This document shows positions 3,393-30,440 of a stretch of DNA of 34,887 nucleotides, in pieces. The DNA is from Candidatus Sabulitectum sp. Lineage in GTDB: Bacteria; Fermentibacterota; Fermentibacteria; Fermentibacterales; JCC-6. Positions within the stretch are counted from its first letter, which is position 1; each line of letters starts with the position of its first letter. A program made the position numbers and the translations under genes. The DNA is taken from NCBI GenBank assembly GCA_029938555.1, contig JAOZUR010000013.1:1-34887 (forward strand), written 5' to 3'. Below the pieces are notes generated by a model. That model was given only the letters and a program-made list of their open reading frames with translations. It made no database searches and had not been told where the DNA came from.

Positions 3393-3424
3393 TTGTAAAC
3401 CTTGCACAATTCGATGGTTGACAA
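3393..3424 (+). promoter_or_regulatory. BirA operator of the biotin operon
   Basis: TTGTAAACC (3393-3401) and GGTTGACAA (3416-3424) form an inverted repeat with a 14-bp spacer. The known BirA consensus is TTGTAAACC, about 15 bp, then GGTTTACAA. The left half is perfect and the right half has one mismatch. The site lies about 80 bp before the bioC start, so biotin-loaded BirA would be expected to repress the whole operon. A CACAAT (3405-3410) inside the spacer could serve as the -10 box, but no good -35 was found. Confidence 0.85.
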
Positions 3425-3503: not shown

Positions 3504-4304
3504 TTGCAGAGCATATTGATTCCTGAAACAGAGATTGTGCTGTCACAATTCTCGGATGCAGCAGGTGTTTATGACACATATGCAGAACACCACAGATTGA
3601 TTGCTTCAAAACTGCTAAATCTTACTTGCAATTTAAAACCTAAAAGTTTGCTTGAGTTGGGATGTGGAACAGGCATTCTTTCTGAAGGACTGAATTTATT
3701 ATTTCCTGATGCATACAAAGAATTTACTGATGGAGCTTCTGAAATGGTAAAATTTTGCCAAAGTAAGATTCCTTCTTCAAAACTGGTATCACACAATGTA
3801 CTTGATTTTGAAAAAATTGAGGGTAATTCTAAATATGATCTTGTTCTATCCAGCTGTGCATTGCAGTGGGTTCGAGATCCTGATTCATTTATAAGCCAAC
3901 TTCCTTCGCTAATCAATCATGGAGGTTATACAGCCCATGCTATTCCTGTGAAGGGTATGCTTTTTGAGCTGGAAGAAAGTTTTGCAAAAATTGACGGAGA
4001 CTGGAACTCTATTCAATACTTCTCAGGCGAAAAATGGATTGACTTGTTTTACCAGGCTGGTTTCAAAATTGAACAATCTTTCACCGATGATTTCACCGTA
4101 TTCTACAATTCACCTATGGACGTTTTACGGGCAGTTCGTGGTATCGGGGCATCTCTCTCAAACCACCAAGAAGCATCGGTTGTCTCGCCGGTTGTTCTTA
4201 GAAAAGCCTTAAATTACTATAGCTGTAATTTTGGTGACGAGTCTGGAGTGGTCCCAGCAACTTACAAAGTACATTTTGTGGTAACCTCTGGAGGTAACAA
4301 ATGA
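3504..4304 (+). CDS. bioC: malonyl-ACP O-methyltransferase BioC
   Basis: BioC methylates the free carboxyl of malonyl-ACP so that fatty acid synthesis can build the pimeloyl chain of biotin. The 266-residue product (E. coli BioC is 251) starts with FSDAAGVYDTYAEHH, the usual BioC opening. The SAM-binding motif LLELGCGTGILSEGL follows, then YDLVLSSCALQWVRDP, the class I methyltransferase post-motif region typical of BioC. The frame is open back to 3402. However, the added 34 residues are basic and unlike the family, and the TTG at 3504 has an ideal AGGAGG. It overlaps bioD by 4 bp and heads the operon under the BirA site. Confidence 0.88.
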   Translation: MQSILIPETEIVLSQFSDAAGVYDTYAEHHRLIASKLLNLTCNLKPKSLLELGCGTGILSEGLNLLFPDAYKEFTDGASEMVKFCQSKIPSSKLVSHNVLDFEKIEGNSKYDLVLSSCALQWVRDPDSFISQLPSLINHGGYTAHAIPVKGMLFELEESFAKIDGDWNSIQYFSGEKWIDLFYQAGFKIEQSFTDDFTVFYNSPMDVLRAVRGIGASLSNHQEASVVSPVVLRKALNYYSCNFGDESGVVPATYKVHFVVTSGGNK

Positions 4305-5002
4305 AATCACTGTTCATCACAGGTACTGATACAGATGCCGGAAAAACATTTGTAACTGCTGGAATTGTCAGTGGTTTTGTAAATCAAGGTGTTAATGCAG
4401 TTGCGGCAAAGCCCGTCCAGACAGGTTGCGTTAACGGTATTGCAGAAGATCTTGAGTTCGCACTAAAGACCGCTTGTCTTTCATTCACTGAACCTATTTT
4501 GAAAGAATTGTGCCCTCTACGATTTGAGCCTGCATGCTCTCCCCATCTTGCTGCTGAACTTGCTGATTATTCGATTTCTCTTCCCAGTATGATATCTAAT
4601 CTGCTAAATCTTCAAACTGATTTTGAATGTGTTGTTGCCGAAGGTGCAGGGGGAATCATGGTTCCTCTGGGCAATAAAAAATTAATGCTTGATCTTATGG
4701 TTGAACTGGTTTGGCCAGTTGTTCTGGTTTCTTCTGACAAATTAGGTACCATAAACCATACACTTCTTTCTATTTCAGCTTTAAGGCAAGCAGGACTTGA
4801 TATTGCAGGCGTAGTTATCAATCATACATCTCCCCCGTCCTCTCTGATAAGCAAAAGCAATACAGTAGCAATACAGGAGTACGGTGACGTTGAAATACTA
4901 GGAGAAATCCCATTCTCACCTGAAGCTTTTCCACACCAGTCTTTTGTTTCGATTTGCAACAAGCTGAAAGGAATTTTGTCTTATGAATTTCAGGGAAACT
5001 GA
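4301..5002 (+). CDS. bioD: dethiobiotin synthetase BioD
   Basis: BioD closes the ureido ring of biotin: 7,8-diaminopelargonic acid, CO2 and ATP give dethiobiotin. The protein has 233 residues, a normal length. It shows the P-loop GTDTDAGKTF near residue 8, the AKPVQTG segment near residue 40 whose Lys is catalytic, and VVAEGAGGIMVPL near residue 110. These are the BioD hallmarks within the SIMIBI NTPase fold. It starts within the bioC stop (ATGA overlap) and runs 20 bp into bioA, so translation is likely coupled. Confidence 0.95.
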   Translation: MKSLFITGTDTDAGKTFVTAGIVSGFVNQGVNAVAAKPVQTGCVNGIAEDLEFALKTACLSFTEPILKELCPLRFEPACSPHLAAELADYSISLPSMISNLLNLQTDFECVVAEGAGGIMVPLGNKKLMLDLMVELVWPVVLVSSDKLGTINHTLLSISALRQAGLDIAGVVINHTSPPSSLISKSNTVAIQEYGDVEILGEIPFSPEAFPHQSFVSICNKLKGILSYEFQGN

Positions 5003-6293
5003 TCTTTTACATCTGTGGCATCCGTATACTGATACTAACAAATTTGAACAAATTGACTTCCCCATTATACAAAGCGCAAGCGGTGTTCGACTTAAGGATT
5101 CAAATGGTAAAGAATACCTGGACGGAATCAGTTCATGGTGGTGCGTTAACCTTGGTCATAGCCACAAACATGTTGTAAACTCGATTGTGCAGCAATCAGT
5201 TAGCTTACAACACAGCATTACAGGCGGAATGTCACATACCGCTGTAATTGAACTGTCTGAGAAGCTTTCACAAGTAACTCCCGGAGACCTGAATCGGGTT
5301 TATTATGCATCCGATGGTGCCAGTGGTATTGAAGCAGCATTGAGGATGGTTATTCAATACTGGTGGAATTTAGGGCAAAGTGAAAAGAAGAATATCATAT
5401 CACTTTCCGGTGCATATCACGGAGATACCATGGGTACTGTGGGGCTTGGTTTTTTACCAAAATTCCATAAACCAATTGAACATGTGGTGAATAGATCATT
5501 ACAGATTCCTGCTCCAATTTGCTTCCACTGCGCTGACTCAGAGAATTGCACTTTGCAGTGTTTTAAAGATGCTGAACAGATTCTTACAAAACATTCTAAA
5601 ACAACTGCTGCTGTGATCATTGAACCTGTCTGTCAGGGTGCTGCTGGAATTCGTATTTATCCGCCAGAATATGTGACCAAATTACGAAAACTATGCACAG
5701 AACTAGATATACTTTTAATACTGGACGAGATTGCAGTTGGATTTGGAAGAACAGGTAAAATGTTTGCGTCAGATCTGGCAGAAATCCAACCGGACCTGAT
5801 GGTTGTGGGAAAATCCCTTACAGCAGGTTACCTGCCCATGAGTGCTGTAATAACCACTGAAGAATTTTTTGATAGTTTTCGTTCCATCCCCGGGCAAGAT
5901 CGAACTTTTTACCACGGGCATACTTTTTCCGGAAACCCCATTGCAGCTGCGGCGGCAATTGCAGCTCTTGAAGTTTTTGAAAAGGAAAACATTATAGAAC
6001 AAAGCAAAATACCTGCGAATCTTCTAAAAAGCGGTTTTGAAGCATTTAGTGAAAAACCAGGGGTACACAAAACAAAAACTCTCGGATGTATGAGCTCTCT
6101 CGAAATCTCAGAGCAGGCAGGTGGTGCTAAAGCAACAGAAAAAATGGCTATTCTTGCCCTTAAAGAAGGTCTAATAATAAGGCCACTGGGGCCTATTGTT
6201 TATCTTTGGCCTCCCCTTGTTACAAACAAGTCGGAAATGAAAGAAATGCTTAGTATATTCGACTATTGTTTAGACTGCTGTATTTCCGTTTAA
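4983..6293 (+). CDS. bioA: adenosylmethionine-8-amino-7-oxononanoate transaminase BioA
   Basis: BioA is the PLP enzyme that moves an amino group from SAM to KAPA, giving DAPA, the substrate of BioD. The 436-residue protein has LWHPYTD at the N-terminus and DGISSWWCVNLGH, the BioA substrate-site signature. It also has YHGDTMGTVG, LILDEIAVGFGRTGKMFAS, and GKSLTAGYLPMSA with the Schiff-base Lys at residue 277 (Lys274 in E. coli). A small Cys cluster (CFHC, then C and C) occurs around residues 180-195, in the place where several BioA proteins have one. It overlaps bioD by 20 bp. Confidence 0.95.
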   Translation: MNFRETDLLHLWHPYTDTNKFEQIDFPIIQSASGVRLKDSNGKEYLDGISSWWCVNLGHSHKHVVNSIVQQSVSLQHSITGGMSHTAVIELSEKLSQVTPGDLNRVYYASDGASGIEAALRMVIQYWWNLGQSEKKNIISLSGAYHGDTMGTVGLGFLPKFHKPIEHVVNRSLQIPAPICFHCADSENCTLQCFKDAEQILTKHSKTTAAVIIEPVCQGAAGIRIYPPEYVTKLRKLCTELDILLILDEIAVGFGRTGKMFASDLAEIQPDLMVVGKSLTAGYLPMSAVITTEEFFDSFRSIPGQDRTFYHGHTFSGNPIAAAAAIAALEVFEKENIIEQSKIPANLLKSGFEAFSEKPGVHKTKTLGCMSSLEISEQAGGAKATEKMAILALKEGLIIRPLGPIVYLWPPLVTNKSEMKEMLSIFDYCLDCCISV

Positions 6294-6309: not shown

Positions 6310-6945
6310 GTGCTAAAAGAAAACTACTGGGATTCAATAGATTTAGAAGGGCTTGGTACCGAAAAGATTCACGATCTTAATGTATCAGGGTCTGTTTTGC
6401 TGATTATGGATATGCAGAACTTTTTTCTTTCTCCAGAATCTCATGCTTTTGTACCCTCCTCTCCAGGGCTCATTCCAGTTATTATGGATCTTGTTTTTAG
6501 CTTTGAGCAACAGGGTTTACCTGTTATTTACACAAGGCACTTAAATACTCTGGAAAATGCAAAAAACATGGGGTTATGGTGGCGAGATGTTATAACCGAA
6601 GACAAAACTCTCAGCGAAATACACAGCTCTTTTGATACTTCTAATTCCACAGTTATCAATAAGTCTCAATATGATGCTTTCTACAAAACTGATTTACAGA
6701 GTATTCTTGAAACACTTGGTACCACAACTGTGATTATTACAGGTGTTATGACCAATCTCTGCTGTGAAACTACTGCAAGATCTGCATTTGTAAAAGGGTT
6801 TAATGTACTAATGCCAGTTGATGGTACAGCCACTGTTAACAGTGAATTGCACAGGGCAACTACCATAAATTTATCACATGGTTTTACTAAACCTGTAAGT
6901 GTTGCGTCCATCAAAAAAAGTATTATGAGTTTGTGTGAATACTGA
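6310..6945 (+). CDS. isochorismatase-like cysteine hydrolase in the bio operon
   Basis: This 211-residue protein is of the isochorismatase / cysteine hydrolase superfamily, which includes nicotinamidases, carbamoyl-sarcosine amidases and isochorismatases. The Asp-Lys-Cys triad is visible: Asp34 in LLIMDMQN, Lys118 in VINKSQYDAF, and Cys151 in GVMTNLCCETTARSAF. The exact substrate cannot be read from sequence. GTG 6310 is the start, with AGGAGA 5 bp upstream. It lies 16 bp after bioA and overlaps the next gene by 11 bp, so it belongs to the biotin transcription unit. No standard biotin step uses this family. It might remove an amide or act on a side product, which is inference. Confidence 0.85.
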   Translation: MLKENYWDSIDLEGLGTEKIHDLNVSGSVLLIMDMQNFFLSPESHAFVPSSPGLIPVIMDLVFSFEQQGLPVIYTRHLNTLENAKNMGLWWRDVITEDKTLSEIHSSFDTSNSTVINKSQYDAFYKTDLQSILETLGTTTVIITGVMTNLCCETTARSAFVKGFNVLMPVDGTATVNSELHRATTINLSHGFTKPVSVASIKKSIMSLCEY

Positions 6946-7741
6946 AAAAATTATCATTATCGGTGCTGGACCTGCCGGTCTTGCAGCTGCCCAGCAGTTA
7001 AAACTATATGGAATTGACCCACTGGTTATAGAGAGTGATCAGCCTGGCGGGTTGCTGCTAAATGCCAACTCTGTAATTAATTATCCCGGCGTTCTTCAGG
7101 GCATTTCAGGAAAAGAATTAGTGAAAATGTTTCCATTACCTAAACAACTTATAATTGCTGAAGTAACATCTATTTACAAAGAATCTTCATTTTATGTAAT
7201 CAATTCAGCTAGGGGTACTTTGAAAACTAGTACAGTTATAGTCGCTTCAGGAACAACTCCAACTAAAATAAAACTTCAACGAATTCCAGAAAACAGAATT
7301 CACTATGAGGTCAAAAATTTGAACGAAATAAGTGGAAAAACTGTGGCAATCATCGGTGGTGGTGATGCAGCTTTAGATTACGCCATGACTCTTAGCAAAA
7401 AAAACATTGTGAATGTTTATGCCCGTGGCGATTTTTCAAAAGTCGTTACCCACTTAATGGAAAAAGTTCAGACAGTTAAAAACATCACACTTCACCCTGG
7501 AAAACTTCCTGAAAATCAGGTTTTTTTAGAGGACTTAATAATCGTAGCCATTGGAAGAAAAGCCAGACTAGATTTCATTTCAGAAAAACTGTTATCTTCG
7601 CCACCTAAGGATGGTTCATTTCATCTATGTGGTGACTGTAAAAACGGTATTTATCGTCAGACTGCTATAGCAGTAGGCAATGGAGTAGAAGCTGCTATGA
7701 AAACAGCTGAATATCTGAGAAAAGTGGAGACCTATAAATGA
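6935..7741 (+). CDS. thioredoxin-reductase-like FAD/NAD(P) oxidoreductase without CxxC
   Basis: This 268-residue flavoprotein has two dinucleotide folds: IIIIGAGPAGLAAAQQL at the N-terminus for FAD, and VAIIGGGDAALDYA near residue 138 for NAD(P)H. The C-terminal FHLCGDCKNGIYRQTAIAVG is the thioredoxin reductase FAD-tail motif. It is about 40 residues shorter than thioredoxin reductase and lacks the CxxC redox disulfide in the NAD(P) domain, so it should not reduce thioredoxin. Related short proteins reduce ferredoxin or act as NAD(P)H oxidases. It may supply electrons to the radical SAM protein encoded next, with which it overlaps by 4 bp. That role is inference. The start is GTG 6935 inside the previous gene. 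Confidence 0.85.
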   Translation: MNTEKIIIIGAGPAGLAAAQQLKLYGIDPLVIESDQPGGLLLNANSVINYPGVLQGISGKELVKMFPLPKQLIIAEVTSIYKESSFYVINSARGTLKTSTVIVASGTTPTKIKLQRIPENRIHYEVKNLNEISGKTVAIIGGGDAALDYAMTLSKKNIVNVYARGDFSKVVTHLMEKVQTVKNITLHPGKLPENQVFLEDLIIVAIGRKARLDFISEKLLSSPPKDGSFHLCGDCKNGIYRQTAIAVGNGVEAAMKTAEYLRKVETYK

Positions 7742-8691
7742 AGGTAATTGCTTCAAGTGGCAGAGATGATCTGGCCAGGGTTTATATAGTAGAGTTCGAT
7801 AACGGTCTACAAGTTGAGTGTGCGGAATCGGTACAACCGCCAATTCCTCTTGAAAAGAAATGGGTAATGCTTATTTCTACACTTTTTGGCTGTCCGGTGG
7901 GATGTTCCATGTGTGACGCTGGAACAGAATATCATGGTAAACTTTCTGCAACACAGATAACTGAACAGATTGAAATGATGATTCGAAGACGCTTCCCCAA
8001 CATGAAGGTTCCTTCTACTCAATTCAAAGTTCAATTTGCCAGAATGGGCGAACCTGCGTTAAATCTGGAAGTGATTGATGTTCTTAAAGAATTGCCTAAT
8101 CGTATAGATGCACCTGGCTTTATGCCATCAATATCTACGGTTGCCCCAACAGGAACCATGAAGTTTTTCGAAGAGTTACTGAAAGTAAAGCAAAATCTGT
8201 ACACAAATGGAAACTTTCAACTTCAATTTTCAATCCACACCACAGATGATATTCTTCGTAGAAAGATAATTCCTGTATCAACCTGGACTCTGGCAGAAAT
8301 AGCTGATTATGGTACTAAATTCTTTTCCTTAGGTGACAGAAAAGTAACGCTTAACTTCGCCCTTGCAAAAGATTCACCATTGGAAACAGATGTTCTTCTT
8401 AAGTATTTTGATCCAAACATATTCCTTATCAAAATCACTCCTTTAAACCCAACCTACAATGCAATAAAAAATAATCTCACCTCACACATCAATGCTTCTG
8501 TTGCCACAGATAAAAGAAATTCTCTTGTTGAAGATATTAGAAACGCTGGATATACCGTAATTTTGAGTATTGGCGAACAGGAAGAAAACAAGATAGGTAG
8601 TAACTGTGGGCAATACTTAAAAGCTCATGTGAATTCCAAAACTCATATGGAAAATGGTTATACCTACGCCATCAGTAAGGTTTCAGAATAA
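7738..8691 (+). CDS. RlmN/Cfr-like radical SAM protein in the bio operon
   Basis: This 317-residue radical SAM enzyme carries the cluster motif CPVGCSMC (Cys52, 56, 59). The rest follows the RlmN/Cfr pattern: RMGEPALN, FSIHTTDDILRRKIIPV, LIKITPLNPTYNAI, and a C-terminal NCGQYL with Cys290 at the place of the methyl-carrying Cys of RlmN (CGQ). It lacks the RlmN N-terminal helical domain and is shorter than RlmN (384 in E. coli). RlmN and Cfr methylate A2503 of 23S rRNA, but a member embedded in a biotin operon may act on another substrate. It is last in the tightly coupled run. It is clearly not BioB, having a CxxxCxxC of the RlmN form and the second Cys. Confidence 0.82.
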   Translation: MKVIASSGRDDLARVYIVEFDNGLQVECAESVQPPIPLEKKWVMLISTLFGCPVGCSMCDAGTEYHGKLSATQITEQIEMMIRRRFPNMKVPSTQFKVQFARMGEPALNLEVIDVLKELPNRIDAPGFMPSISTVAPTGTMKFFEELLKVKQNLYTNGNFQLQFSIHTTDDILRRKIIPVSTWTLAEIADYGTKFFSLGDRKVTLNFALAKDSPLETDVLLKYFDPNIFLIKITPLNPTYNAIKNNLTSHINASVATDKRNSLVEDIRNAGYTVILSIGEQEENKIGSNCGQYLKAHVNSKTHMENGYTYAISKVSE

Positions 8692-10182: not shown

Positions 10183-11060
10183 AACATGTTCTAACTATTT
10201 TGATTCTGATTAACATATCTCTTGCACAGGAAAATTCTGAGCCATTGAATTCAGTACACGAGTGGGGCGTTGTTGTTTTTGAGAGAAACGCAGGTCCCGT
10301 TATTTGCGGTAGCCCGTGGCAGGAATCTGCTTTATTTATCAATGAAGATTTATCTGCTAAAGCACCAGTTATTTGGATTTATGGAGAGCCTTTTCAAGGA
10401 ACATTCAGAGTTGAAGTGGGAACCGGTGAAACTATCACAATGGTTTACCCAAACCCAGATTCACTTGATTATGAGTTTGCTGAATGGTCTATTTCTACAG
10501 TTCATAACACTGAAGAAATTGACGAATTCTTGTATGATGGACCTTTTGCTTGGGCGGTAGAATCTTGGAGGAATGTACCTTCTCTTTACCTGTTTAATGA
10601 AAACACAGGTATTACAGAGAATTTTCTATATTATGAGTGTACAGTAAATTCTGATTTCCCTGATAAATTTTTTCACTGGAATTCTGAAGGAAATCCTGTC
10701 TTTTCAGGGATTCCTATTGATGATGCCCTGGCTTTCACCCCTTATGGAGTGATTCAGGTAGCACTGCAGGAAGACAGTTTTGTTCCCAATGAATACTCCA
10801 TTGACGGGATCTCACAACCAGAACAGGTGATTGATGTTTTCACTCGCTGGGCAGGTTCAAAACTGTATCCCTCAGAGATTGAAGCCTTGTGGGAAACCTG
10901 GGAACCTGCATTCACTGAATCAGGTCACTACTGGCTTGTATTCCCCATACCTGACGAACACAACAACGAAATAAGTAAAATTCATCTTGAAACATCAGAT
11001 CAGAGGAATGTAGAATACAACAGGCTTTTTTTAGCAGCAGTACGAATCAGTCTGCCATAA
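10179..11060 (+). CDS. secreted protein of unknown function, VHEWG family, copy 2
   Basis: This is the paralogue of the gene before it. After a short signal peptide (MKHVLTILILINISLAQ) it repeats the same blocks in the same order: VHEWGVVVFERNAGPVICG, APVIWIYGEPFQGTF, FAWAVESWRNVPSLYLF, ITENFLYYECTVN, ALWETWEPAF, YWLVFPIPDE and NRLFLAAVRISL. At 293 residues it is 11 shorter, mainly by loss of a mid-region stretch (an EETEMLIEEE-like segment). A tandem duplication with diverged codons suggests an old event. The ATGA overlap suggests equal expression of both copies, possibly as partners. Its last codons overlap the convergent adenosine deaminase gene by 14 bp. Confidence 0.75.
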   Translation: MKHVLTILILINISLAQENSEPLNSVHEWGVVVFERNAGPVICGSPWQESALFINEDLSAKAPVIWIYGEPFQGTFRVEVGTGETITMVYPNPDSLDYEFAEWSISTVHNTEEIDEFLYDGPFAWAVESWRNVPSLYLFNENTGITENFLYYECTVNSDFPDKFFHWNSEGNPVFSGIPIDDALAFTPYGVIQVALQEDSFVPNEYSIDGISQPEQVIDVFTRWAGSKLYPSEIEALWETWEPAFTESGHYWLVFPIPDEHNNEISKIHLETSDQRNVEYNRLFLAAVRISLP

Positions 11061-12273
11061 CTTTTTCGAAATAATCAAGGCAAACCTTGATGTAAGCTCG
11101 TTTTTCTTTATAAGAGTGTGGAAAAAAGCTTCGCTTAAATCCGTAAGCAACAATGTTTTTGAGCTGCCTAGCTGTCAGATTAAAAGTCTGAACTGCCTTA
11201 AAAATTTCATCGGTAACAGTTGTATTTGAAACTGTTCTGTTATCAGTGCAGATAGTGCAAGACAACCTATTATCTATCATTTTACGAAAAGGATGATTTG
11301 CCAAGTTATGAAGATTGGGGGCGGTTTGCATATTTGAAGAAAGACAAACTTCAATTGTAACCCTTCTGTCTGCAATGAAGCTTACAAGATCATCGGTATA
11401 CCTCTGCTTATCTACTATTGATGGATCAGTAACAGCACTTGGGTTAAACAGGGAAGTTCCATGGCCGATTCTGTCTGCGCCAAGCTCTGTTATGGCTTGA
11501 AAAATACTTTCCGGCCCATATGCCTCGCCTGCATGGACCGTTTTGCTAATAAAGTTTCGCCTAGCAAGTTCGTAAGCTTCACGATGATGAATTGGTGGAT
11601 ATCCTTTTTCTCTTCCGGCAATATCAATGGCAACAACAGGTATTCCATTTTCTCTTCTGGCTTTAACAATTGCACCTGCCAGTTCATAAGACGCCAGACC
11701 AAAAATTCTATCATGTTCTGAATGTGAATGAACCTTAAAAATATCTTTGAAATATTCTGAAGAGTTATTAGTAAAAAAGCGCATGGCACATGCAATTATT
11801 CCATAATCAAAAGGTGGCTCTTTCCCTGAGGTAATCTCAAAACGATTGTTGAATTCTTTTTTGGCTTTGTCTAATCCATGATTCACTGCTTCAAGCACCT
11901 GTTGCAGATTCATTTCTCCACCGGCATAACGCTGCGGTGCAAATCGTGCTTCAATGTACCTTACACCCTCTCTTTGATTATCTACTGCCAGCTCATACGC
12001 AATGCGAGACAGGTTTTCTGCCTTTTGCATAACTGCACCTGGATAAACAAAACACTTCAAATACTCTTCAAGATTAAGATAGCTTTCTTTAAAAACTGTT
12101 TCCTTAAGTCCTTGGACCGTATAAGATGGAAGTTCTATTCCGTCTTTTTGGGCCAGATCGATAAGGGTTTCCAGTCTAATAGAACCACCAAGATGAACAT
12201 GCAGATCTGTCTTGGGAAGTTTAAGAATTAATTCTCTGGTTATGGGAATTGCAGGCAAGTCATTTGGATTCAT
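11047..12273 (-). CDS. adenosine deaminase family protein, copy with Gly at the HxHLD position
   Basis: This 408-residue protein is of the adenosine/AMP deaminase amidohydrolase family. Zn-site and catalytic motifs are visible: TDLHVHLGGS near residue 21, TVHAGEAYGPES (catalytic Glu), RIGHGTSLF, and ICTDNRTVSNTTV with the Zn-binding Asp. The DN instead of DD is normal for many bacterial members. In contrast, the Asp of HxHLDG, which in adenosine deaminase contacts the ribose 5'-OH, is Gly here while the neighbouring paralogue keeps it. That may mean altered substrate choice. ATG 12273 overlaps the upstream gene by 14 bp, and AAAGG lies just before it. Confidence 0.88.
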   Translation of the reverse strand: MNPNDLPAIPITRELILKLPKTDLHVHLGGSIRLETLIDLAQKDGIELPSYTVQGLKETVFKESYLNLEEYLKCFVYPGAVMQKAENLSRIAYELAVDNQREGVRYIEARFAPQRYAGGEMNLQQVLEAVNHGLDKAKKEFNNRFEITSGKEPPFDYGIIACAMRFFTNNSSEYFKDIFKVHSHSEHDRIFGLASYELAGAIVKARRENGIPVVAIDIAGREKGYPPIHHREAYELARRNFISKTVHAGEAYGPESIFQAITELGADRIGHGTSLFNPSAVTDPSIVDKQRYTDDLVSFIADRRVTIEVCLSSNMQTAPNLHNLANHPFRKMIDNRLSCTICTDNRTVSNTTVTDEIFKAVQTFNLTARQLKNIVAYGFKRSFFPHSYKEKRAYIKVCLDYFEKVMAD

Positions 12274-13468
12274 TTACAACCTTTTCAAAGTATTCCATGT
12301 TTTCTCTCACATAGGTTCTCTTATTTCTATAAGCAGCTGGAAAAAAACTTCTTTTAAAACCATAAACCATCAGGGTTTTCACATCGTTAAGGGTTAAATT
12401 AAAAGCCTGAACAGCCTTGAAAATTTCATCTGTAACCGTTGTATGAGATACTGTTCTATTATCTGTACATATTGAACAAGACAGCTTGTTCTCAAGCATT
12501 TTTTGGAAAGGATGATCTTCAAGTCGTTTAAGACTGGGGTCTGTCTGCATATTTGAAGTAAGACATACCTCCATGGTAATTCTTCGGTTTGCAATAAATT
12601 GCACAAGATCATTTACATATAACTCTCGGTTAACAATTGATGTATCGGTTATAGCATCAGGTTTAAAAAGAGATGTGCCATGCCCTATGCGACCTGCACC
12701 AAGTTCCGTTATAGCTTGAAAAATACTTTCTGGACCGTACGCTTCACCGGCATGAACTGTTTTGTTTAAGAAGTTTCTTTGGGCAAGCATATATGCATCT
12801 CTGTGATGGATTGGAGGGTTTCCCTTTTCTGGTCCTGCAAGGTCAATACCCACAACAGGCAGATCCATTTCTCGTCTGGCTTTTACAGCAGCTCCAACCA
12901 CCTGCAAGGAAGCAAGACCAAAGATTTTATCTTCGTCTGAAAATGAATGAACTGAAACAATATCATTGTAATAAGGAGAGAAATGCTTGTTAAAGTAACG
13001 CATAGCGCAGACAATAATTCCGTACTCAAATGATGGTTCCGCTCTGGAGATTACCTGAGGTCTATTATTGAATTCTTGTTTTGCTTTGTTTAGGCCATAG
13101 TTAACTGCTTCGATCGTATCAAGCATAGACATTTCTCCACCGGCATGTAATTGTGGAGCATATCTAACTTCTATGTACCTGACACCTTCATTCTGATTAT
13201 CTACAGCCAGTTCATACGCTATTCTCTGGATGTTTTCTTTCGTTCGCATAACAGCACAGGTATATCCGAAGCCCTGCAAGTACTCTTCAAGATCTCTGTA
13301 GTTTTCCTTAAAAACAGTTTCCTTCAGCCCTTCAACTGTGTATGATGGCAGTTGAACACCCTGATCCTTTGCAAGCTCAATTAGAGTTTCAATTCTGATG
13401 GATCCATCAAGATGTAGATGAAGATCTGTTTTCGGCAATTTTTTAATAAGCTCTCTTGTTAATTCCAT
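12260..13468 (-). CDS. add: adenosine deaminase
   Basis: This 402-residue paralogue of the next gene has the complete motif set: TDLHLHLDGS near residue 14, TVHAGEAYGPES, RIGHGTSLF, and ICTDNRTVSHTTV. The enzyme converts adenosine to inosine with a Zn-activated water in the cytoplasm. AGGAGG lies 6 bp before ATG 13468. It is first in a two-gene unit and is separated from groES by a hairpin. Adenosine deamination would feed purines towards the xanthine dehydrogenase encoded further along the window, though the two loci are not in one operon. Confidence 0.92.
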   Translation of the reverse strand: MELTRELIKKLPKTDLHLHLDGSIRIETLIELAKDQGVQLPSYTVEGLKETVFKENYRDLEEYLQGFGYTCAVMRTKENIQRIAYELAVDNQNEGVRYIEVRYAPQLHAGGEMSMLDTIEAVNYGLNKAKQEFNNRPQVISRAEPSFEYGIIVCAMRYFNKHFSPYYNDIVSVHSFSDEDKIFGLASLQVVGAAVKARREMDLPVVGIDLAGPEKGNPPIHHRDAYMLAQRNFLNKTVHAGEAYGPESIFQAITELGAGRIGHGTSLFKPDAITDTSIVNRELYVNDLVQFIANRRITMEVCLTSNMQTDPSLKRLEDHPFQKMLENKLSCSICTDNRTVSHTTVTDEIFKAVQAFNLTLNDVKTLMVYGFKRSFFPAAYRNKRTYVRENMEYFEKVVNESK

Positions 13469-13558: not shown

Positions 13559-13852
13559 TTACTCTGGAATCAAATCTGATTCCACATACTTTGCAAGTAG
13601 ATCTCCTGATGATATAAGCAAATATGTTTCACCATCAACCTTAATTGAAGTGCCACTGTACTCTTTATAAATCACCCTGTCACCAATTGCCACTTCATCC
13701 GCAGCATCTGCAGCTTTTGCAACTATGATTCCCTCGGCAGGTTTCTTCTGCGCGCTATCTGGAATAACAATTCCACTCTTGGTAACATTTTCAACCTCAA
13801 CTGCCTCAAGCATAACAAAATCCTGCAGTGGCTGTACTTTAACATCTTTCAT
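13559..13852 (-). CDS. groES: co-chaperonin GroES
   Basis: This 97-residue protein has the full GroES layout: KVQPLQDFVMLEAVE at the N-terminus, the mobile loop TKSGIVIPDSAQKKPAEGII that binds GroEL, then GDRVIYKEYSGTSIKVDGE and YLLISSGDLLAKYVE. GroES caps the GroEL ring during ATP-driven folding. groEL is not beside it. The gene is instead third in an arsR / thioredoxin-glutaredoxin operon, beginning 1 bp after the preceding stop. This hints at folding coupled to redox or metal stress, by context only. Confidence 0.95.
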   Translation of the reverse strand: MKDVKVQPLQDFVMLEAVEVENVTKSGIVIPDSAQKKPAEGIIVAKAADAADEVAIGDRVIYKEYSGTSIKVDGETYLLISSGDLLAKYVESDLIPE

Positions 13853-13853: not shown

Positions 13854-14456
13854 TTATACCTCTTTCCTTGATTTTAATCCTAAATACATATCAATTTTTG
13901 TTTTATCAAAACCAACAACATAATTACCACCAATGCTAAGCTGAGGTACCCCTACCTGACCGGTTCTTGCCTTAAGAGCAGCTGCACTGGAAGCATCACG
14001 AGAAACATTAACTTCACGGAAAGGTACCCGGTTTTTGCGAAGATAAGTTTTAACCCTGGTACACCATACACAGGAATCACCAGTCCAGACTGTCACCTGT
14101 GGAAAGCCTATTTTTTTATCTTTTCCAGCATTTACTTCTATTGAATGATTCTGAAAAGCATTCAGATAATAATCCGTGTTATGTTTTCCTACAATCTTTT
14201 GAATAACTTTATTGTTACTGATGGAAATAACAGTGGGAACACTGTTAACGCCATAGAATTTATGAACACCTTTCACCACATTAACATCCACAAGTAGAGC
14301 TTTTATCTCAGTATTTAGTGAAGCAAATTCTCTAAAATCAGATTCAGCCTCATTTGATACTTGCGAAAAACTACCAAAAAAACCGACTACCAACTCTTTC
14401 TCACCGTTTAAAATAGAATTAAATTCTTCTACATCTCGTACGATAACTAAACTCAT
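13854..14456 (-). CDS. thioredoxin-fold and glutaredoxin-domain fusion protein
   Basis: This 200-residue protein has two redox folds. Residues 1-105 form a thioredoxin-like domain (ELVVGFFGSFSQVSNEAESD, VDVNVVKGVHKFYGVNSVPT with the cis-Pro). It has no CxxC at the active site, where the sequence is GSFSQVS. Residues about 118-200 form a glutaredoxin domain with CVWC in VTVWTGDSCVWCTRVKTYL and the glutathione-site motif VGVPQLSIGG. The C-terminal half should be the catalytic disulfide reductase and the N-terminal half a binding or scaffold domain. It sits between arsR (4-bp overlap) and groES (1-bp gap). Confidence 0.85.
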   Translation of the reverse strand: MSLVIVRDVEEFNSILNGEKELVVGFFGSFSQVSNEAESDFREFASLNTEIKALLVDVNVVKGVHKFYGVNSVPTVISISNNKVIQKIVGKHNTDYYLNAFQNHSIEVNAGKDKKIGFPQVTVWTGDSCVWCTRVKTYLRKNRVPFREVNVSRDASSAAALKARTGQVGVPQLSIGGNYVVGFDKTKIDMYLGLKSRKEV

Positions 14457-22606: not shown

Positions 22607-23656
22607 TTAAAAAAGATGTACTGCGCTAGCTTTAAAAGAAAGATGTACGCTGGATCCCTGGGTGATAGCCAATTCGTTCAGAGCACCTGTTGTAAGAGCG
22701 ACACACAAAGAAACTTCTGATACGATAACAACAACATCCCAATTAATTCCGTTCCTGTGTATGGATTTGACCACTCCTCTAAAATGATTTCTTTCACTGG
22801 TAATACTAGGAGAAAGAGCCAGCACAATAACCTCTGGTGGAATTGCAAGAAAACCGTGACCAGAACGAACACCAGAATGTCTAACAGTTAGTCGCCCTGA
22901 ATGGGCATCTGACCCTTTGAATTCCACAGGTAAAATGTTTCTAACTCCGGTGAATGAAGCCATGAACTTATTTTCAGGCTTAAACAAAAGATCATCCATG
23001 TTTCCAGACTGTTCCACAACACCATCACGCATAACAGCACCCATTGTTCCAACAGCAAGAGCATCAGTAAAATCATGGGTTGCCATCATAAATGTTGTTC
23101 CTGTTATGGAATGAATTTGTTTTATTCTACCAAGAAGATCCCGTTTAAATGTCGGGTCAAGAGATGTTGTAGGTTCATCAAGTATGAGCAGTTCTGGTTC
23201 AAGAACAAGTGCCCTAGCTAAAGCTGTTCTGCGCTGTTCGCCTCCTGAAAGAGTGGATGCATCTCTTTGTGCAAAACCGTTTAGACCTGTAAACTCCATA
23301 ATTTTTTCAACACGCCTGTTAATAATGTTCTGTTCTAAACCTCGAATTTTCAATCCCCAAGCTATGTTAGAAAAAACGGTACCCCTAAACATAACTGGAC
23401 TTTGAAACATGGTAGCTATACGACGCCTTGTTTTAAGAAGACTTTTACCTTTAGCTGGAATCACTTTTCCGTTCAAAAGAATTGTACCTGATTCAGGCTT
23501 ATCCAGCAGGCCAGCAATTCTTAACAAACTTGTTTTTCCACATCCAGTTGGCCCCATGAGAACAAAAAAACAACCCTTTGGTAAATCAATAGATACACCA
23601 TTAAGTATCTTGTTACCTTCTTTGGCTTGAGAGATGTTCTTCATCTGAAGTTTCAT
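22607..23656 (-). CDS. tupC: tungstate-type ABC transporter ATP-binding protein
   Basis: This is the ATPase subunit of the oxyanion importer. The 349-residue protein has Walker A GPTGCGKTSLLR near residue 36, Q-loop FQSPVMF, signature LSGGEQRR, Walker B LLILDEP, and the switch MATHDF. The last 100 residues or so form a TOBE/Mop-like regulatory domain (IPPEVIVLALSPSI and IVSEVSLCVAL), as in molybdate and tungstate ATPases. It starts 4 bp within the permease stop and ends the tup operon. The substrate assignment rests on the operon partners. Confidence 0.85.
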   Translation of the reverse strand: MKLQMKNISQAKEGNKILNGVSIDLPKGCFFVLMGPTGCGKTSLLRIAGLLDKPESGTILLNGKVIPAKGKSLLKTRRRIATMFQSPVMFRGTVFSNIAWGLKIRGLEQNIINRRVEKIMEFTGLNGFAQRDASTLSGGEQRRTALARALVLEPELLILDEPTTSLDPTFKRDLLGRIKQIHSITGTTFMMATHDFTDALAVGTMGAVMRDGVVEQSGNMDDLLFKPENKFMASFTGVRNILPVEFKGSDAHSGRLTVRHSGVRSGHGFLAIPPEVIVLALSPSITSERNHFRGVVKSIHRNGINWDVVVIVSEVSLCVALTTGALNELAITQGSSVHLSFKASAVHLF

Positions 23657-24348
23657 TTCTTCCCTCCATGCTGAAGAAGGTTTACGATAATGCTAACCAC
23701 CATGGCCATAAAAAGAAGAATTATACCTAGAGCAATTGAAGATGCCGTTTCCCCTTTACCAATACCTAGGGCGATTGAAGTAGTTAGTGTTCTGGTATAA
23801 CCTGCAATATTACCTCCAACCATTATTGCCACGCCAACCTCGGATACAGCTCGACCAAAACCCATCAAAACAGAAGTAAGCATGGTGTATTTTGCATGGG
23901 AAAGCACCTTGAGAATCATTGTGCTCTTACTTGCCCCCAAGGCAGTGGCAGTTTCCTCTAGTTTTTTTCCTGTACCTTGTAAGGCGGAGACAGTTAAACC
24001 AATGATAATTGGTGCGATAAGAACAATTTCACCAAGAATGATTGCAGACGGGCTAAACAGTAAACCCAGAAATCCCAGAGGGCCACTTCTAGAAACAGTA
24101 AGAAAAACAAGCATGCCCACAAAAACCGTGGGCACACTGTACATTGTCTGTATGAAACCAACAACAAATCGTTTACCTTTAAAACTGTTGAAATGAATCA
24201 AACAACCTAAAGGAACAAACAATATGGTTGCTACAAGGGTGGATGCTGAAGCGATCAGCATGGTTCGAAGGGCAATGGAAAATACCAGGGGGTCACCTGT
24301 TACAATCATCCGCAGAGATATACTGAACGCTTCAAGCAAATGAGACAA
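23653..24348 (-). CDS. tupB: tungstate-type ABC transporter permease
   Basis: This permease has about five membrane helices and the inner-membrane permease signature VLMGFGRAVSEVGVAIMVGG near residue 165, which contacts the ATPase (EAA motif). The TupB-typical opening SHLLEAFSISLRMIVTGDPL and the final helix match the family. I take TTG 24348 as the start. AGGAG lies 5 bp before it, the length becomes 231 residues as is usual for TupB, and it follows the tupA stop by 8 bp. An upstream ATG at 24378 would add ten residues and has no Shine-Dalgarno. Confidence 0.82.
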   Translation of the reverse strand: MSHLLEAFSISLRMIVTGDPLVFSIALRTMLIASASTLVATILFVPLGCLIHFNSFKGKRFVVGFIQTMYSVPTVFVGMLVFLTVSRSGPLGFLGLLFSPSAIILGEIVLIAPIIIGLTVSALQGTGKKLEETATALGASKSTMILKVLSHAKYTMLTSVLMGFGRAVSEVGVAIMVGGNIAGYTRTLTTSIALGIGKGETASSIALGIILLFMAMVVSIIVNLLQHGGKK

Positions 24349-24356
24349 TGGTTCTC

Positions 24357-25262
24357 CTAAATGGCTTCTCCAGCGCATGGGGTAAATAACTGCATGCCGT
24401 AAGCCTCAACACCGTAGTTTCCAATAAGCTGCTGAACTTCAGCTGAAACCAAAAATTCCACAAGAGCCTGTGCTAACTCAGAATTTCTTGAAGCTTCAAC
24501 CTGTAGAACAGAATATACATTCAAAAGAGCATCACCCTGATCAACAACAGGCACAAGGCTCAAGTCACCTTGATATGCAAGATAAGTACCTATATCAGTA
24601 AGGGTGTATCCTTGCATCTCGTTAGCCATAACAAGCGTGGGCCCCATACCACTTCCACCTTCAACATACCAGGTTCCAGCTGTGCGTACATCTTCGTCAT
24701 AGTCAAATCCAGCAGCTACCCAGATAGATTTCTCTTTCCCGTGGGTTCCAGAATCATCGCCACGACTGACAAAAGTAGCTTCACCATTACTCATCAGGGT
24801 TGCAAAAGCCTCTTCTGGTGCCAAATCTGAAATACCTGCAGGATCTTCAGAAGGCCCAACAATAAGGAAATAATTGTAAGCAAAAGGAACTCGCTCAACA
24901 CCAAAACCCTCAGCTACAAAAGCCTCTTCACGGTTTCTTGAATGAACTGTAATAACATCAACATCACCGCGTTTGCCCCAGTCAATCGCTTTACCTGTAC
25001 CTGCATAAAGAACATCAAGCTCAACATCGTATTTTTCTTCAAACATTGGCTCAAGGTATCCCCACAGCCCTGTATCGTACAGGCTTGTAGTTGTAGCTAC
25101 CCGCAGTCTCTCCACTCTTGCAATAGGTACAACAACACCAGATTCAACAGTTACTTCTTCTATTACTTCAATCTCTGATGTTTGAACCTGTTGAGGTTCC
25201 TGACTACAACCGGATAAAACAATAGCTAACAAAAACACAGATATCCAAAGATGATTCTTCAT
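24357..25262 (-). CDS. tupA: tungstate-binding lipoprotein
   Basis: The solute-binding component, 301 residues. A lipoprotein signal peptide ends VLSGC (Cys19), and a linker rich in Glu and Val follows. The TupA core starts LRVATTTSLYDTGLWGYLEP, the TTTS motif of tungstate-binding proteins. Then come VDVITVHSRNREEAFVAEGF, the FVSRGDDSGTHGKEKSIW oxyanion-binding loop, and GSGMGPTLVMANEMQGYTLT. This pattern favours tungstate over molybdate ModA, but ion choice cannot be proved by reading. It is first in tupABC and divergent from the xanthine dehydrogenase operon. Confidence 0.9.
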   Translation of the reverse strand: MKNHLWISVFLLAIVLSGCSQEPQQVQTSEIEVIEEVTVESGVVVPIARVERLRVATTTSLYDTGLWGYLEPMFEEKYDVELDVLYAGTGKAIDWGKRGDVDVITVHSRNREEAFVAEGFGVERVPFAYNYFLIVGPSEDPAGISDLAPEEAFATLMSNGEATFVSRGDDSGTHGKEKSIWVAAGFDYDEDVRTAGTWYVEGGSGMGPTLVMANEMQGYTLTDIGTYLAYQGDLSLVPVVDQGDALLNVYSVLQVEASRNSELAQALVEFLVSAEVQQLIGNYGVEAYGMQLFTPCAGEAI

Positions 25263-25338
25263 AAAAAAACTCCTGAATGAAATAATTTTTAAACAAACTC
25301 CAAATGACCAGAGAGAGAAATATATTCGTTATGCCTGA

Positions 25339-25367
25339 TTGACACAACCGCAGAACGATCACTATTT
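25339..25367 (+). promoter_or_regulatory. possible promoter of the xdh operon
   Basis: A perfect -35 TTGACA (25339-25344) is followed after 17-18 bp by CTATTT/TATTTG, a weak -10. The site lies in the 158-bp divergent gap between tupA and xdhA. No clear ModE-type palindrome was found there. Confidence 0.3.
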
Positions 25368-25420
25368 GCAGGCAGTACCGAAAAGAATAGATTTGCATTA
25401 TTGTTCATACAGGAGGAATT

Positions 25421-26779
25421 ATGATTTCATTTATCTGTAACAACAAAGAAGTTTTTGAAGATTGCCCTAGTGGATTACCTGTACTGGACTGGATTCGGTC
25501 ACAAACAGCTTTAAAAGGAACCAAAGAAGGGTGCCGAGAAGGCGACTGTGGTGCTTGTACTGTAATAATCGGCAGACTTGTAAATGAAGAAGTAAAATAC
25601 TCTGCTTCATGCTCCTGCCTTTTACCTATAGGTGAAATTGCAGGTTGTCACCTTGTCACTATTGAAGGAATCTCAGAAGGTGAAAAGTTAACACCTTTTC
25701 AAAAATCATTCTACGATCAGGCAGCATCCCAATGCGGCTTTTGTACACCGGGTATGATAATGAGTTTAACCGGCAATCTATTAAGCACAAAAGAGTTTTC
25801 TTCGGAAGCTGCAATAGAAGCACTAGATGGAAACATCTGTCGCTGCACAGGTTACCTTGCTGTAAAAAGAGCAGTTGATAATGTAATGAAAACTCTTCCA
25901 TCTGAATATGATAACCGTATTGAAATGCTAATAGACAATGGGCACATACCAGATTACTTTAAAACAATACCAGGTAGGCTCAAAAATTTACCTGTTTTAA
26001 AAAAAATCGCCAGGGGACCTGTGGTAGCTGGTGGCACAGACCTCTATGTACACTCAAGTGATAATCTTTCCGCACAAGAACCAACTTTTCTTTCATTAGA
26101 CCCAAAGTTAAACTATATAAAAACAGATAACAAACATGTAAGAATAGGATCAACTGTAACCTTTGCCCAATTGCGAGAATCTAAAATAATCACTGAATTA
26201 TTCCCCTCGTTAAAATCTTTCCTTTTGCGGGTTTCTTCAACTCAAATTAGAGCAAGAGCAACTGTAGGTGGCAACATTGTAAACGCATCGCCCATAGCGG
26301 ATATTACAATTATTTTACTTGCACTGAATACTACTTTGCGAATATCTGAAAGGCATATTCCTTTGTGTGATTTCTTCCTTGGATACAAAAAACTTGATAT
26401 GCAACCAGATGATATTCTGAAAGAAGTATCCTTTCCTGTTCCAGCCCAGGGCACGGTGCTTTCTTCTCTAAAAGTTTCCAAACGAGAGTTCTTAGACATC
26501 GCCAGCGTAAACTCATCCATGCTAATAAGAGTGGAAGACAATATTATACTTAATGCTAGGGTTGCCGCAGGTGGTGTTTCGCCCATTCCTTTACTGCTTG
26601 TTAAAACAAGCGATTATCTCTGTGGTCGGAACCTTACAGAAAAAACAATTGAAACTGCTTGTTCAATAGCCGCAAGTGAAATTTCACCAATCAGCGATGT
26701 AAGAGGTTCGAAAGAATACAAAATCAAACTGCTTCAAGCTCAAATTCGAGCCCACCTTACAAGGGGAGTTAAGTCATGA
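25421..26779 (+). CDS. xdhA: xanthine dehydrogenase small subunit (2Fe-2S and FAD)
   Basis: This electron-transfer subunit passes electrons from the molybdenum site through two [2Fe-2S] clusters to FAD and then NAD. Its 452 residues are close to the R. capsulatus XdhA length. The plant-type cluster is held by CREGDCGAC (Cys38, 43, 46) and a Cys near 64-66. The second cluster is held by QCGFCTPGM and NICRCTGY. The FAD domain starts with GPVVAGGTDLYVHSSD near residue 200, then RATVGGNIVNASPIADITII and a C-terminal CO-dehydrogenase-flavoprotein-like domain (ACSIAASEISPISDVRGS). AGGAGG precedes the ATG. The stop overlaps xdhB by 4 bp. Confidence 0.93.
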   Translation: MISFICNNKEVFEDCPSGLPVLDWIRSQTALKGTKEGCREGDCGACTVIIGRLVNEEVKYSASCSCLLPIGEIAGCHLVTIEGISEGEKLTPFQKSFYDQAASQCGFCTPGMIMSLTGNLLSTKEFSSEAAIEALDGNICRCTGYLAVKRAVDNVMKTLPSEYDNRIEMLIDNGHIPDYFKTIPGRLKNLPVLKKIARGPVVAGGTDLYVHSSDNLSAQEPTFLSLDPKLNYIKTDNKHVRIGSTVTFAQLRESKIITELFPSLKSFLLRVSSTQIRARATVGGNIVNASPIADITIILLALNTTLRISERHIPLCDFFLGYKKLDMQPDDILKEVSFPVPAQGTVLSSLKVSKREFLDIASVNSSMLIRVEDNIILNARVAAGGVSPIPLLLVKTSDYLCGRNLTEKTIETACSIAASEISPISDVRGSKEYKIKLLQAQIRAHLTRGVKS

Positions 26780-29028
26780 AACACTTCGATGCCAAACTCC
26801 ATGTAAAAGGAAAATCCATATTTACAGCGGATATTCCAGAACCTGCTGGAACACTTCATGCTGCAGTTTTTACATCCCCTTGTGCCCATGGTAATATTCT
26901 TTCCATAAACACATCCGTTGCTGCTGATTTACCTGGAGTTGTAAGAATCCTTACAGCAAAAGACATTCCAGGAGAAAACCAAATTGGAAATATTGTACAG
27001 GATGAACATCTACTTGCGGAAAAAACTGTACATTTCATAGGTGAACCTGTGGCAATTGTGCTTGCAGAAACAAAACAGCAAGCTTACTATGCATCTAAAA
27101 AAATCACTATGGATTTAACAGAACTTGAAGCAATTTCAGATGCTAGAACAGCGGCAAAACGAGGAGACCTAATAGTTCCACCTAGAACTTTTTCCTGTGG
27201 TGATACCGATACAGTGATGAAAAACTGTACTCATGTAATCACTGGAACTGCTGAAACTGGTGGACAAGAGCATTTGTATCTGGAAACACAAAGCTCTCTT
27301 TGTGTACCCGGTGAAGGCCCCGCACTTCACATTACAAGCTCTACCCAAAGCCCCTCTTTTGTACAGAAAACAGTTTCAAAAGTGTTAGGCATCCCAATCC
27401 ATCAAGTTCAAGTGGATGTGTTAAGGTTAGGAGGTGCATTTGGCGGAAAAGAAGACCAGGCAACTCCTTGGGCAGTTATGGCTGCCCTGGCTACACATCT
27501 AACCGGAAGACCGGTTAAGCTGATACTGAGTAGGCATGAAGATCTTGTAAACACAGGAAAAAGACATCCGTACTCTTATGATTTTACCATTGGTTTAAAT
27601 GAAGATGGAAAAATCTTGGCGTGGATTGTAGACTATTACCAGAACAGTGGCGCAGTATCTGACCTGTCCACAGCCATTCTTGAACGATCTCTGTTTCATA
27701 GCACAGGCAGTTACTTTATTCCAAATGTCACTGCCACGGGATACTGTTGCAAAACAAATCTTGCTCCGAATACAGCTTTCAGAGGTTTTGGTGGACCACA
27801 AGCAATGTTTGTAATGGAAGCAGCCATTCATAAAGCATCTATAGAAACCGGATTGGCCGTACAGCACATACAAAAAATCAACTTGTTAAAAAAAGGTGAT
27901 TCTTTCCCGTATGGCATGTTATACAGCTGCAATGAAACCCAAACTTCATGGGAAATTCTTGAACAGGTTGCTGAAGTGTCTACAACTAGAGATTCAATCA
28001 AAAAATTCAACGAAAATAACAAATACATGAAAAAAGGTATTTCCATGATGCCTGTGTGTTTTGGAATCTCTTTTACCTCAACTTTTCTGAACCAGGCCAA
28101 TGCCCTTGTTCATGTTTACACAGATGGCAGTGTAGGCATTAGCACAAGTGCTGTTGAAATGGGTCAGGGTGTAAATTCCAGGATTCGACAAGTGGCAGCA
28201 GAAATCTTCTCGATTCCTGTTGAGCGAACTAAAGTAGAATCAACCAATACCAGCAGAACTGCAAATACATCCCCCACAGCAGCCAGCTCCGGTGCAGACA
28301 TGAATGGAAATGCAACAAAAATCGCCTGTGAGAAGATAAAGGAAAGATTGCTGGAAGTTGCGGCAAAAGAACTGAATAAAGACAAAAAACATCTAACTCT
28401 AAACAATTCATCTGTTTTATGTAATAATAATTTAACCGATCTTTCCTGGACTCAACTTGTAACAATTGTCTATATGAGCAGAATCAGTTTGTCTTGTCAT
28501 GCCCATTATGCAACCCCTGGAATACATTTTGACAAAACAAAGGAAAAAGGCAGACCGTTTGCCTACCATGTAACCGGCACAGCCGTTACAGAAGTCACAG
28601 TAGACAATCTACTTGGCACCTACAAAGTTGACAGAGTGACAATAGTTCACCATGGTGGAGATCAGTTAAATCCTCTTCTGGATCAGGGTCAGGTTGAAGG
28701 CGCATTGCTTCAAGGTATAGGTTGGGTAACAATGGAAGAACTAAAGTGGCATGAAAAAAGCAAAAGACTTCAAGCGGATTCTCTTGCTACATACAAAATT
28801 CCAGACATCAGTTTCACTCCAGAGTCAGTGACTATTCTTTTTGCAAAAGGTGAAGAACTTGATAGCAATATTGGCCTTAAGGGATCTAAAGCTATTGGAG
28901 AACCACCTTTTATGTATGGAATAGGTACATGGTTTGCTTTGGTGGAAGCAATGAGAGCGTACAATCCTAAACTGGTACTAGATTATTCATCTCCACTGAC
29001 CCCTGAAAAAGTATTGATGGCTAAATGA
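26776..29028 (+). CDS. xdhB: xanthine dehydrogenase molybdopterin subunit
   Basis: This 750-residue catalytic subunit hydroxylates purines such as hypoxanthine and xanthine. Landmarks are DIPEPAGTLHAAV, the Moco motif RLGGAFGGKEDQ (GGGFGGKE in most homologues), LSRHEDLVNTGKRHPY with the substrate-site Glu, AFRGFGGPQAMFVMEA with the substrate-site Arg, EMGQGVNSRIRQVAAE, and the catalytic Glu in SKAIGEPP near the C-terminus. Because the Glu and Arg pair that binds purines is kept, xanthine dehydrogenase is likelier than an aldehyde oxidase. It is coupled by ATGA overlaps on both sides. Confidence 0.92.
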   Translation: MKHFDAKLHVKGKSIFTADIPEPAGTLHAAVFTSPCAHGNILSINTSVAADLPGVVRILTAKDIPGENQIGNIVQDEHLLAEKTVHFIGEPVAIVLAETKQQAYYASKKITMDLTELEAISDARTAAKRGDLIVPPRTFSCGDTDTVMKNCTHVITGTAETGGQEHLYLETQSSLCVPGEGPALHITSSTQSPSFVQKTVSKVLGIPIHQVQVDVLRLGGAFGGKEDQATPWAVMAALATHLTGRPVKLILSRHEDLVNTGKRHPYSYDFTIGLNEDGKILAWIVDYYQNSGAVSDLSTAILERSLFHSTGSYFIPNVTATGYCCKTNLAPNTAFRGFGGPQAMFVMEAAIHKASIETGLAVQHIQKINLLKKGDSFPYGMLYSCNETQTSWEILEQVAEVSTTRDSIKKFNENNKYMKKGISMMPVCFGISFTSTFLNQANALVHVYTDGSVGISTSAVEMGQGVNSRIRQVAAEIFSIPVERTKVESTNTSRTANTSPTAASSGADMNGNATKIACEKIKERLLEVAAKELNKDKKHLTLNNSSVLCNNNLTDLSWTQLVTIVYMSRISLSCHAHYATPGIHFDKTKEKGRPFAYHVTGTAVTEVTVDNLLGTYKVDRVTIVHHGGDQLNPLLDQGQVEGALLQGIGWVTMEELKWHEKSKRLQADSLATYKIPDISFTPESVTILFAKGEELDSNIGLKGSKAIGEPPFMYGIGTWFALVEAMRAYNPKLVLDYSSPLTPEKVLMAK

Positions 29029-30394: not shown

Positions 30395-30440
30395 TTCTAA
30401 AGCAAATTTCAGGCTCACCGATGTTATTCAGAAAGAAAAA

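Follow-up and report, generated by a model that had tools for sequence, protein, structure and literature searches.

Three genes behind bioA in a Candidatus Sabulitectum genome: a probable horizontally spread module centred on an RlmN-like radical SAM protein

What are three genes not known in biotin synthesis doing at the end of a biotin operon? The question is raised by a stretch of 34,887 nucleotides of contig JAOZUR010000013.1 (assembly GCA_029938555.1; Candidatus Sabulitectum sp.), here called the window, which is contig C35 of a draft genome that is 93% complete and has its relatives in Candidatus Fermentibacteria/Sabulitectum. In the window, bioC, bioD and bioA are followed on the same strand by a triad of genes that encode an isochorismatase-like cysteine hydrolase (ICH), a flavoprotein of the thioredoxin reductase fold (TRX) and a radical S-adenosylmethionine (SAM) protein of the RlmN/Cfr fold (RSAM). 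A first-pass annotation of the window, made from the sequence alone, proposed that the triad carries out an unrecognised step of biotin synthesis. Our analysis points elsewhere: the triad is probably a self-contained, horizontally spread, three-component module of anaerobic bacteria and archaea that belongs to a small-molecule pathway and is not involved in making biotin. The features of the locus are:

3393..3424, + strand: BirA-type operator, TTGTAAACC-N14-GGTTGACAA, preceding bioC; 1 mismatch to the half-sites searched
3504..4304, + strand: bioC, malonyl-acyl carrier protein O-methyltransferase; TIGR02072, 147 bits, cut-off of 184.95 not reached
4301..5002, + strand: bioD, dethiobiotin synthase; TIGR00347, 139.6 bits, above the NCBIfam cut-off
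4983..6293, + strand: bioA, diaminopelargonic acid (DAPA) transaminase; TIGR00508, 459 bits, above the NCBIfam cut-off
6310..6945, + strand: ICH, isochorismatase-like cysteine hydrolase; PF00857, 128 bits, cut-off 27
6760-6762, + strand: codon of ICH Cys151
6935..7741, + strand: TRX, thioredoxin-reductase-fold flavoprotein with flavin adenine dinucleotide (FAD) and NAD(P)H sites, without CxxC; TIGR01292, 105 bits against a cut-off of 343
7738..8691, + strand: RSAM, RlmN/Cfr-fold radical SAM protein without the N-terminal RNA-binding domain; TIGR00048, 44.7 bits against a cut-off of 290
7891..7914, + strand: CPVGCSMC, the [4Fe-4S]-binding motif of RSAM (Cys52, 56, 59)
8605..8607, + strand: codon of RSAM Cys290, counterpart of the methyl-carrying Cys355 of RlmN

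The bioC profile is the best match for its protein despite the score below the cut-off, and we read the bioC start as a TTG behind AGGAGG, which yields a protein of 266 amino acids, equal to that in the sister species. ICH starts with GTG, with a Shine-Dalgarno-like AGGAG, 16 bp from the end of bioA at 6293; ICH and TRX overlap by 11 bp, and TRX and RSAM by 4 bp. A re-reading of the open reading frames reproduced this anatomy as given in the first-pass annotation, coordinates included. The operon region shows no excess of predicted promoters (13 against 15.9 expected), in line with the earlier claim that none lies between bioA and the triad, and a predicted BirA-type operator heads the operon for which control by BirA had been proposed; in shuffled sequence, sites with at most 3 mismatches turn up at about 0.06 per 20 kb. 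The triad genes look co-transcribed and conserved as a set. The absence of bioB, bioF and bioH holds for the window and not for the genome, in which all three are encoded elsewhere, bioH as a BioH-like protein.

The triad recurs far from this genus. A scan of GTDB for relatives of RSAM found 490, of which 80 were kept; close homologues occur in the genus and the family and, beyond the order, in 12 of 150 genomes that were sampled. The bacteria among the 80 include Chloroflexota, Eisenbacteria, Cloacimonadota, Latescibacterota, WOR-3, Zixibacteria, Fervidobacterium, Acetothermia and Melainabacteria, the archaea include Methanoculleus, Methanogenium, Thermoplasmata and Heimdallarchaeota, and there are others. 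We read 94 triad loci (84 once duplicate fetches were removed), spread over many phyla of bacteria and over archaea. The order ICH-TRX-RSAM on one strand is found in 91 of these, the three exceptions being overlapping reading frames, and about 90% of the junctions measure 20 bp or less; such recurrence of order and spacing is more than chance. The three proteins diverge in step with one another, with strong pairwise correlation (Mantel r 0.85-0.90; 0 of 2000 permutations) that persists when the family of the window is left out. Where the RSAM gene does not lie beside both partners (13 genomes), TRX orthologues are nevertheless present in 13/13 and ICH orthologues in 12/13, and some of the split triads keep an ICH-TRX pair on another contig. 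Since orthologues are kept in the same genome even when the block is split, all three appear to be needed, and this retention is in our view the best argument that they work together. A profile search for gene fusions that could hint at a function found none, the single apparent one consisting of overlapping frames; no conserved wider neighbourhood was found around the triad, and a search of plasmids returned only matches at the level of RlmN/Cfr.

In the RSAM tree, bacterial and archaeal copies are interleaved. The RSAM of the window is 55-60% identical to copies from Chloroflexota as compared to 46-50% for those of other genera of its own family, as expected of transfer, and the simplest history would be a transfer into the genus followed by insertion behind bioA. 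The favoured explanation includes, we infer, that the module landed behind bioA in the ancestor of the genus and so came under the BirA promoter; control by BirA would then follow from position. The placement behind bioA is seen only in this genus. Most sister species carry a single run, birA-bioB-bioF-bioH-like-bioC-bioD-bioA-triad, with one operator, and a BirA-type operator heads the biotin-triad operon in most of the genus. The genome of the window splits its biotin genes into two units, each with its own BirA-type operator. In two species (L067, L068), genes of the opposite orientation separate the triad from bioA, so that the linkage is lost, and no BirA-type operator was found upstream of ICH; in L068, an operator also lies immediately ahead of bioC.

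The genome itself supplies what the window lacks. On contig C129, an uninterrupted series of genes (L163:3784-7187) comprises birA, bioB, bioF and one for a bioH-like hydrolase; a like BirA-type operator starts at L163:3695, 89 bp ahead of birA, and has 1 mismatch to the same half-sites. BioB exceeds its cut-off (318.5 bits against 225), BioF falls slightly under its own and the BioH-like protein far under. Biotin synthesis in this genome thus looks complete without the triad, judging from the gene inventory. The suggestion that RSAM might be the only RlmN of the genome is rejected as well, a full-length RlmN being encoded on contig C49 (352.9 bits, cut-off 290).

Beyond the genus, the co-occurrence with bioCDA that the first-pass annotation had proposed to look for did not appear: a single BioY aside, the fetched flanks contain no homologue of bioA, B, C, D, F, H-like or birA. 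Across 50 module genomes outside Fermentibacteria, BioB was found in 3, BioD in 4 and BioY in 29, and co-occurrence of the module with biotin synthesis genes came out negative; neither BioB nor BioD is present in 46/50, and therefore no dethiobiotin would be made for the module to act on. In all 4 BioD-positive genomes, which include the 3 with BioB, the RSAM gene lies apart from its partners. In a broad sample, BioB was absent from all module genomes (0/12; p 0.001). The apparent mutual exclusion of module and biotin synthesis loses force for the largest group, however, because BioB is missing from Anaerolineae generally (0/219, only 3 of which carry the module); within the family of the window, the module and BioB coexist freely. 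We accordingly rejected the replacement of BioB, or a late sulfur step, given that BioB is present here and that module genomes elsewhere mostly lack BioD and BioB, and did not accept biotin salvage in auxotrophs, the lack of BioB being general in Anaerolineae. The first-pass annotation had itself named a normal BioB and BioH elsewhere in the genome, together with random neighbours of the three genes in related genomes, as evidence against a biotin step, and this is largely what we observe.

If not biotin, then what? The most informative component is RSAM. Its predicted model (mean predicted local distance difference test, pLDDT, 86) has its best fold matches in RlmN and Cfr (6fz6, 3rfa, 4pl1, 9p0p), and the protein shares with these families (TIGR00048, TIGR04432) the fold, the CxxxCxxC motif, the Cys of CGQ, the GEP motif and the Asn of the NP motif. 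The cluster motif is kept in 119-120 of 120 family members, and Cys290, the CGQ counterpart of RlmN Cys355, is Cys in 119/120. Unlike RlmN and Cfr, RSAM scores far under the family cut-offs, always has flavoprotein and hydrolase partners, and begins at the beta strands that follow the N-terminal domain of RlmN, so that the helical RNA-recognition domain is absent; alignment and model here agree with the first-pass description. Besides this domain, the family departs from its known relatives in a catalytic residue: the counterpart of the resolving Cys118 of RlmN, Leu45 in the window, is Cys in 0/120 family members. As judged from the alignment, the family lacks a trait that defines class A methylases and keeps most of the machinery. 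Lys and Gln residues that are invariant or almost so also stand in the barrel strands (K97, Q99, Q161, Q163, K232), whereas the counterpart strands of RlmN are mostly non-polar, a pattern that points to a substrate that is small and polar, perhaps anionic.

TRX adopts the TrxR fold (TM score of about 0.8 to 5mh4 and 1f6m), has sites for FAD and for NAD(P)H, and shares the two-domain architecture of low-molecular-weight thioredoxin reductases (TIGR01292), from which it differs in lacking the CxxC. This absence, reported in the first-pass annotation, was confirmed in the sequence, and neither a CxxC nor a conserved Cys pair is found in the alignments (38 and 16 sequences). Without CxxC, electrons should leave TRX by another route, and the cluster of RSAM is, we infer, the obvious acceptor. 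In ICH, the Asp-Lys-Cys triad of the superfamily is retained, with Lys118 and Cys151 in 32/32 and Asp34 in 31/32 aligned sequences. The superfamily includes enzymes that cleave carbamoyl, ureido or amide groups; PF00857 hydrolases such as RutB, biuret hydrolase and N-carbamoylsarcosine amidase share with ICH both this triad and the motif T-x-x-C(C)E-T-x-A-R, and ICH reaches no equivalog cut-off.

The reaction that we propose would run as follows. NAD(P)H would reduce TRX, which would pass electrons to the [4Fe-4S] cluster of RSAM or, alternatively, reset its active site. RSAM would methylate Cys290 with one SAM, and a second SAM would convert this methyl group to a radical. The radical would attack an sp2 carbon of the substrate, a molecule that is small, polar and probably anionic; the covalent adduct would be resolved without a Cys118, and ICH would cleave an amide or carbamoyl group, either in the substrate or in the product. 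A purine-type substrate is a first guess, to which the adenine chemistry of RlmN and scattered purine neighbours weakly point. We regard as tenable, if tentative, the proposal that RSAM represents a new class of radical SAM enzyme with a methylated Cys and no resolving Cys, which modifies a small (perhaps purine) metabolite together with a dedicated flavoprotein and an amidohydrolase, in an undescribed pathway that occurs in bacteria and archaea alike.

The purine neighbours are the following. An adenosine deaminase gene lies directly upstream of the triad in L088 and L089; in L166, an adenine deaminase gene (643.6 bits, cut-off 472.5) lies directly downstream of an ICH-TRX pair that mutL-miaA also adjoin; other adjacent genes encode adenosylhomocysteinase (L173), PurA (L172) and PurB (L180). 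XdhC-family proteins make up 3 of 38 downstream neighbours, taken to be from related Anaerolineales (L107, L115, L116). At a single locus, L184, the triad heads a reductive purine-degradation operon with YgeY, YgeW-like, HyuA-like and SsnA proteins, from which a homologue of 8-oxoguanine deaminase, akin to 8-oxoguanine and 5'-deoxyadenosine deaminases, is transcribed divergently. This operon (L184:5399-16588) also encodes a PyrD/PreA-like protein and a threonine-synthase-like, pyridoxal phosphate-dependent protein, which may stand in for YgfK and YgeX of E. coli. We scored enrichment against E. coli purine genes, in a list made after some matches had been seen and with one query taken from these; a control gene list showed no significant excess at adjacent positions. 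We treat the purine link as a weak lead and not as a result.

The window contains further genes of this kind. Downstream of the triad, on the minus strand, are tandem genes of the adenosine deaminase family (11047-12273 and 12260-13468; PF00962, 226 and 237 bits), which are kept at the same place in most species of the genus. At 22607-30995 are an ATP-binding cassette (ABC) transporter with a TOBE domain that we read as molybdate-type and, 17-22 kb from the triad, xanthine-dehydrogenase-type [2Fe-2S]/FAD and molybdopterin subunits with XdhC; this appears to be a molybdenum hydroxylase island, possibly purine-related.

Several observations weigh against the module interpretation or parts of it. 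With regard to the transfer, the fork of the RSAM tree that groups the window copy with Chloroflexota, and not with the other genera of the family, is weakly supported. With regard to the chemistry, RlmN and Cfr cannot do without Cys118, which resolves their covalent adduct and probably serves as a general base (PMC9692996), so that by analogy a family without its counterpart may not methylate at all, and the lining of the RSAM pocket was taken from the strand register in the alignment, not from coordinates. The purine excess is small and post hoc (8/179 adjacent genes against 8/543 at a distance of at least 4, p about 0.02) and, counted per independent locus, weakens to p about 0.06. Finally, the triad directly follows bioA, contiguous and co-directional with bioCDA and mostly behind a BirA-type operator, in 9 of the 11 genomes of the genus that can be judged, and a genuine tie to biotin could lie behind this; the sole biotin gene beside the triad outside Fermentibacteria, the BioY gene of a Thermoplasmata archaeon (L145:612-1325), lies directly upstream of it. 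These last two points, and the frequency of BioY in module genomes, are what favour the idea that the triad performs an unrecognised biotin step, be it late sulfur or methyl chemistry, removal of the methyl ester, or the salvaging or repair of a vitamin that resembles biotin. Given BioB, BioF, BioH-like and BirA on C129, the shortage of BioB and BioD in module genomes and the lack of BioB in Anaerolineae with or without the module, the neighbours elsewhere, which are not biotin genes, and the two sister species without linkage or operator, we consider this idea quite improbable. An RNA substrate, with RSAM still modifying an adenine of tRNA or rRNA and a partner protein supplying recognition, would suit the RlmN/Cfr fold, the retained methyl-carrying Cys and the mutL-miaA genes of L166; it seems unlikely all the same, considering that the N-terminal domain is gone, that the genome has a true RlmN, that the spread is patchy and apparently horizontal, and that base methylation would hardly call for an obligatory partner of the amide-hydrolase type.

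Another reading of the purine neighbours is that they serve to dispose of what radical SAM chemistry leaves behind. In that case, they would merely remove S-adenosylhomocysteine and 5'-deoxyadenosine formed at high flux while the module acts on a small molecule of another kind; class A chemistry yields both, and the adjacent genes are those for adenosylhomocysteinase (L173), adenosine deaminase (L088, L089), adenine deaminase (L166) and the deaminase homologue of L184. This is possible, if rather doubtful: purA, purB and the ygeY/ygeW/hyuA/ssnA operon would be left unexplained, and the statistics are weak. That the triad is a mere passenger, without a functional tie and kept only through block transfer, would account for the patchy distribution and for the missing wider neighbourhood, and is hardly credible, considering that genomes with broken-up blocks still retain the orthologues and that key residues are conserved in all three proteins. 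Two other ideas were dropped: a defence system, for which PADLOC models gave no support beyond a weak match to an FAD domain, and methylation of a cobamide lower ligand (2-methyladenine), an idea suggested by RlmN chemistry for which a literature search and the neighbourhoods gave nothing.

To our knowledge, every class A radical SAM methylase described so far acts on RNA, and those described depend on a pair of cysteines. If the module interpretation is correct, class A chemistry would extend to small molecules, RSAM would offer a test of whether the resolving Cys is indispensable, and the pathway would be a new piece of anaerobic metabolism common to bacteria and archaea. The source of reductant for resetting the cysteinyl radical has been termed unidentified (PMC9692996), and the obligate TRX partner could hint at the kind of reductant that class A enzymes use. 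We found no description of a cluster of an RlmN/radical SAM gene with an isochorismatase or thioredoxin reductase gene in the open-licence PMC literature, within which the triad looks undescribed; the first-pass annotation was right to single out this set, which is real and conserved. The closest parallels are partial. The L184 operon, a single locus, resembles the reductive uric acid degradation cluster of anaerobes (PMC12507026), and neither the abstract of that paper nor its account of the variants of the cluster names such a triad. BsaP, a mycobacterial auxiliary of BioB (PMC11099021), is likewise an extra biotin-linked gene, but a single protein rather than a set of enzymes, and, unlike BsaP, the triad is missing from biotin contexts outside one genus.

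Three further features of the window lie apart from the triad. A HicAB-like toxin-antitoxin pair occupies 1027-1604, with HicB supported by Pfam and HicA, which has no Pfam match, recognised by reading the sequence; in the same manner, 47-403 looks like a fragment of a mutator-type (IS256) transposase. At 13854-14456 on the minus strand, a two-domain protein that combines a thioredoxin-like domain with a glutaredoxin is encoded next to a gene that we read as GroES (13559-13852).

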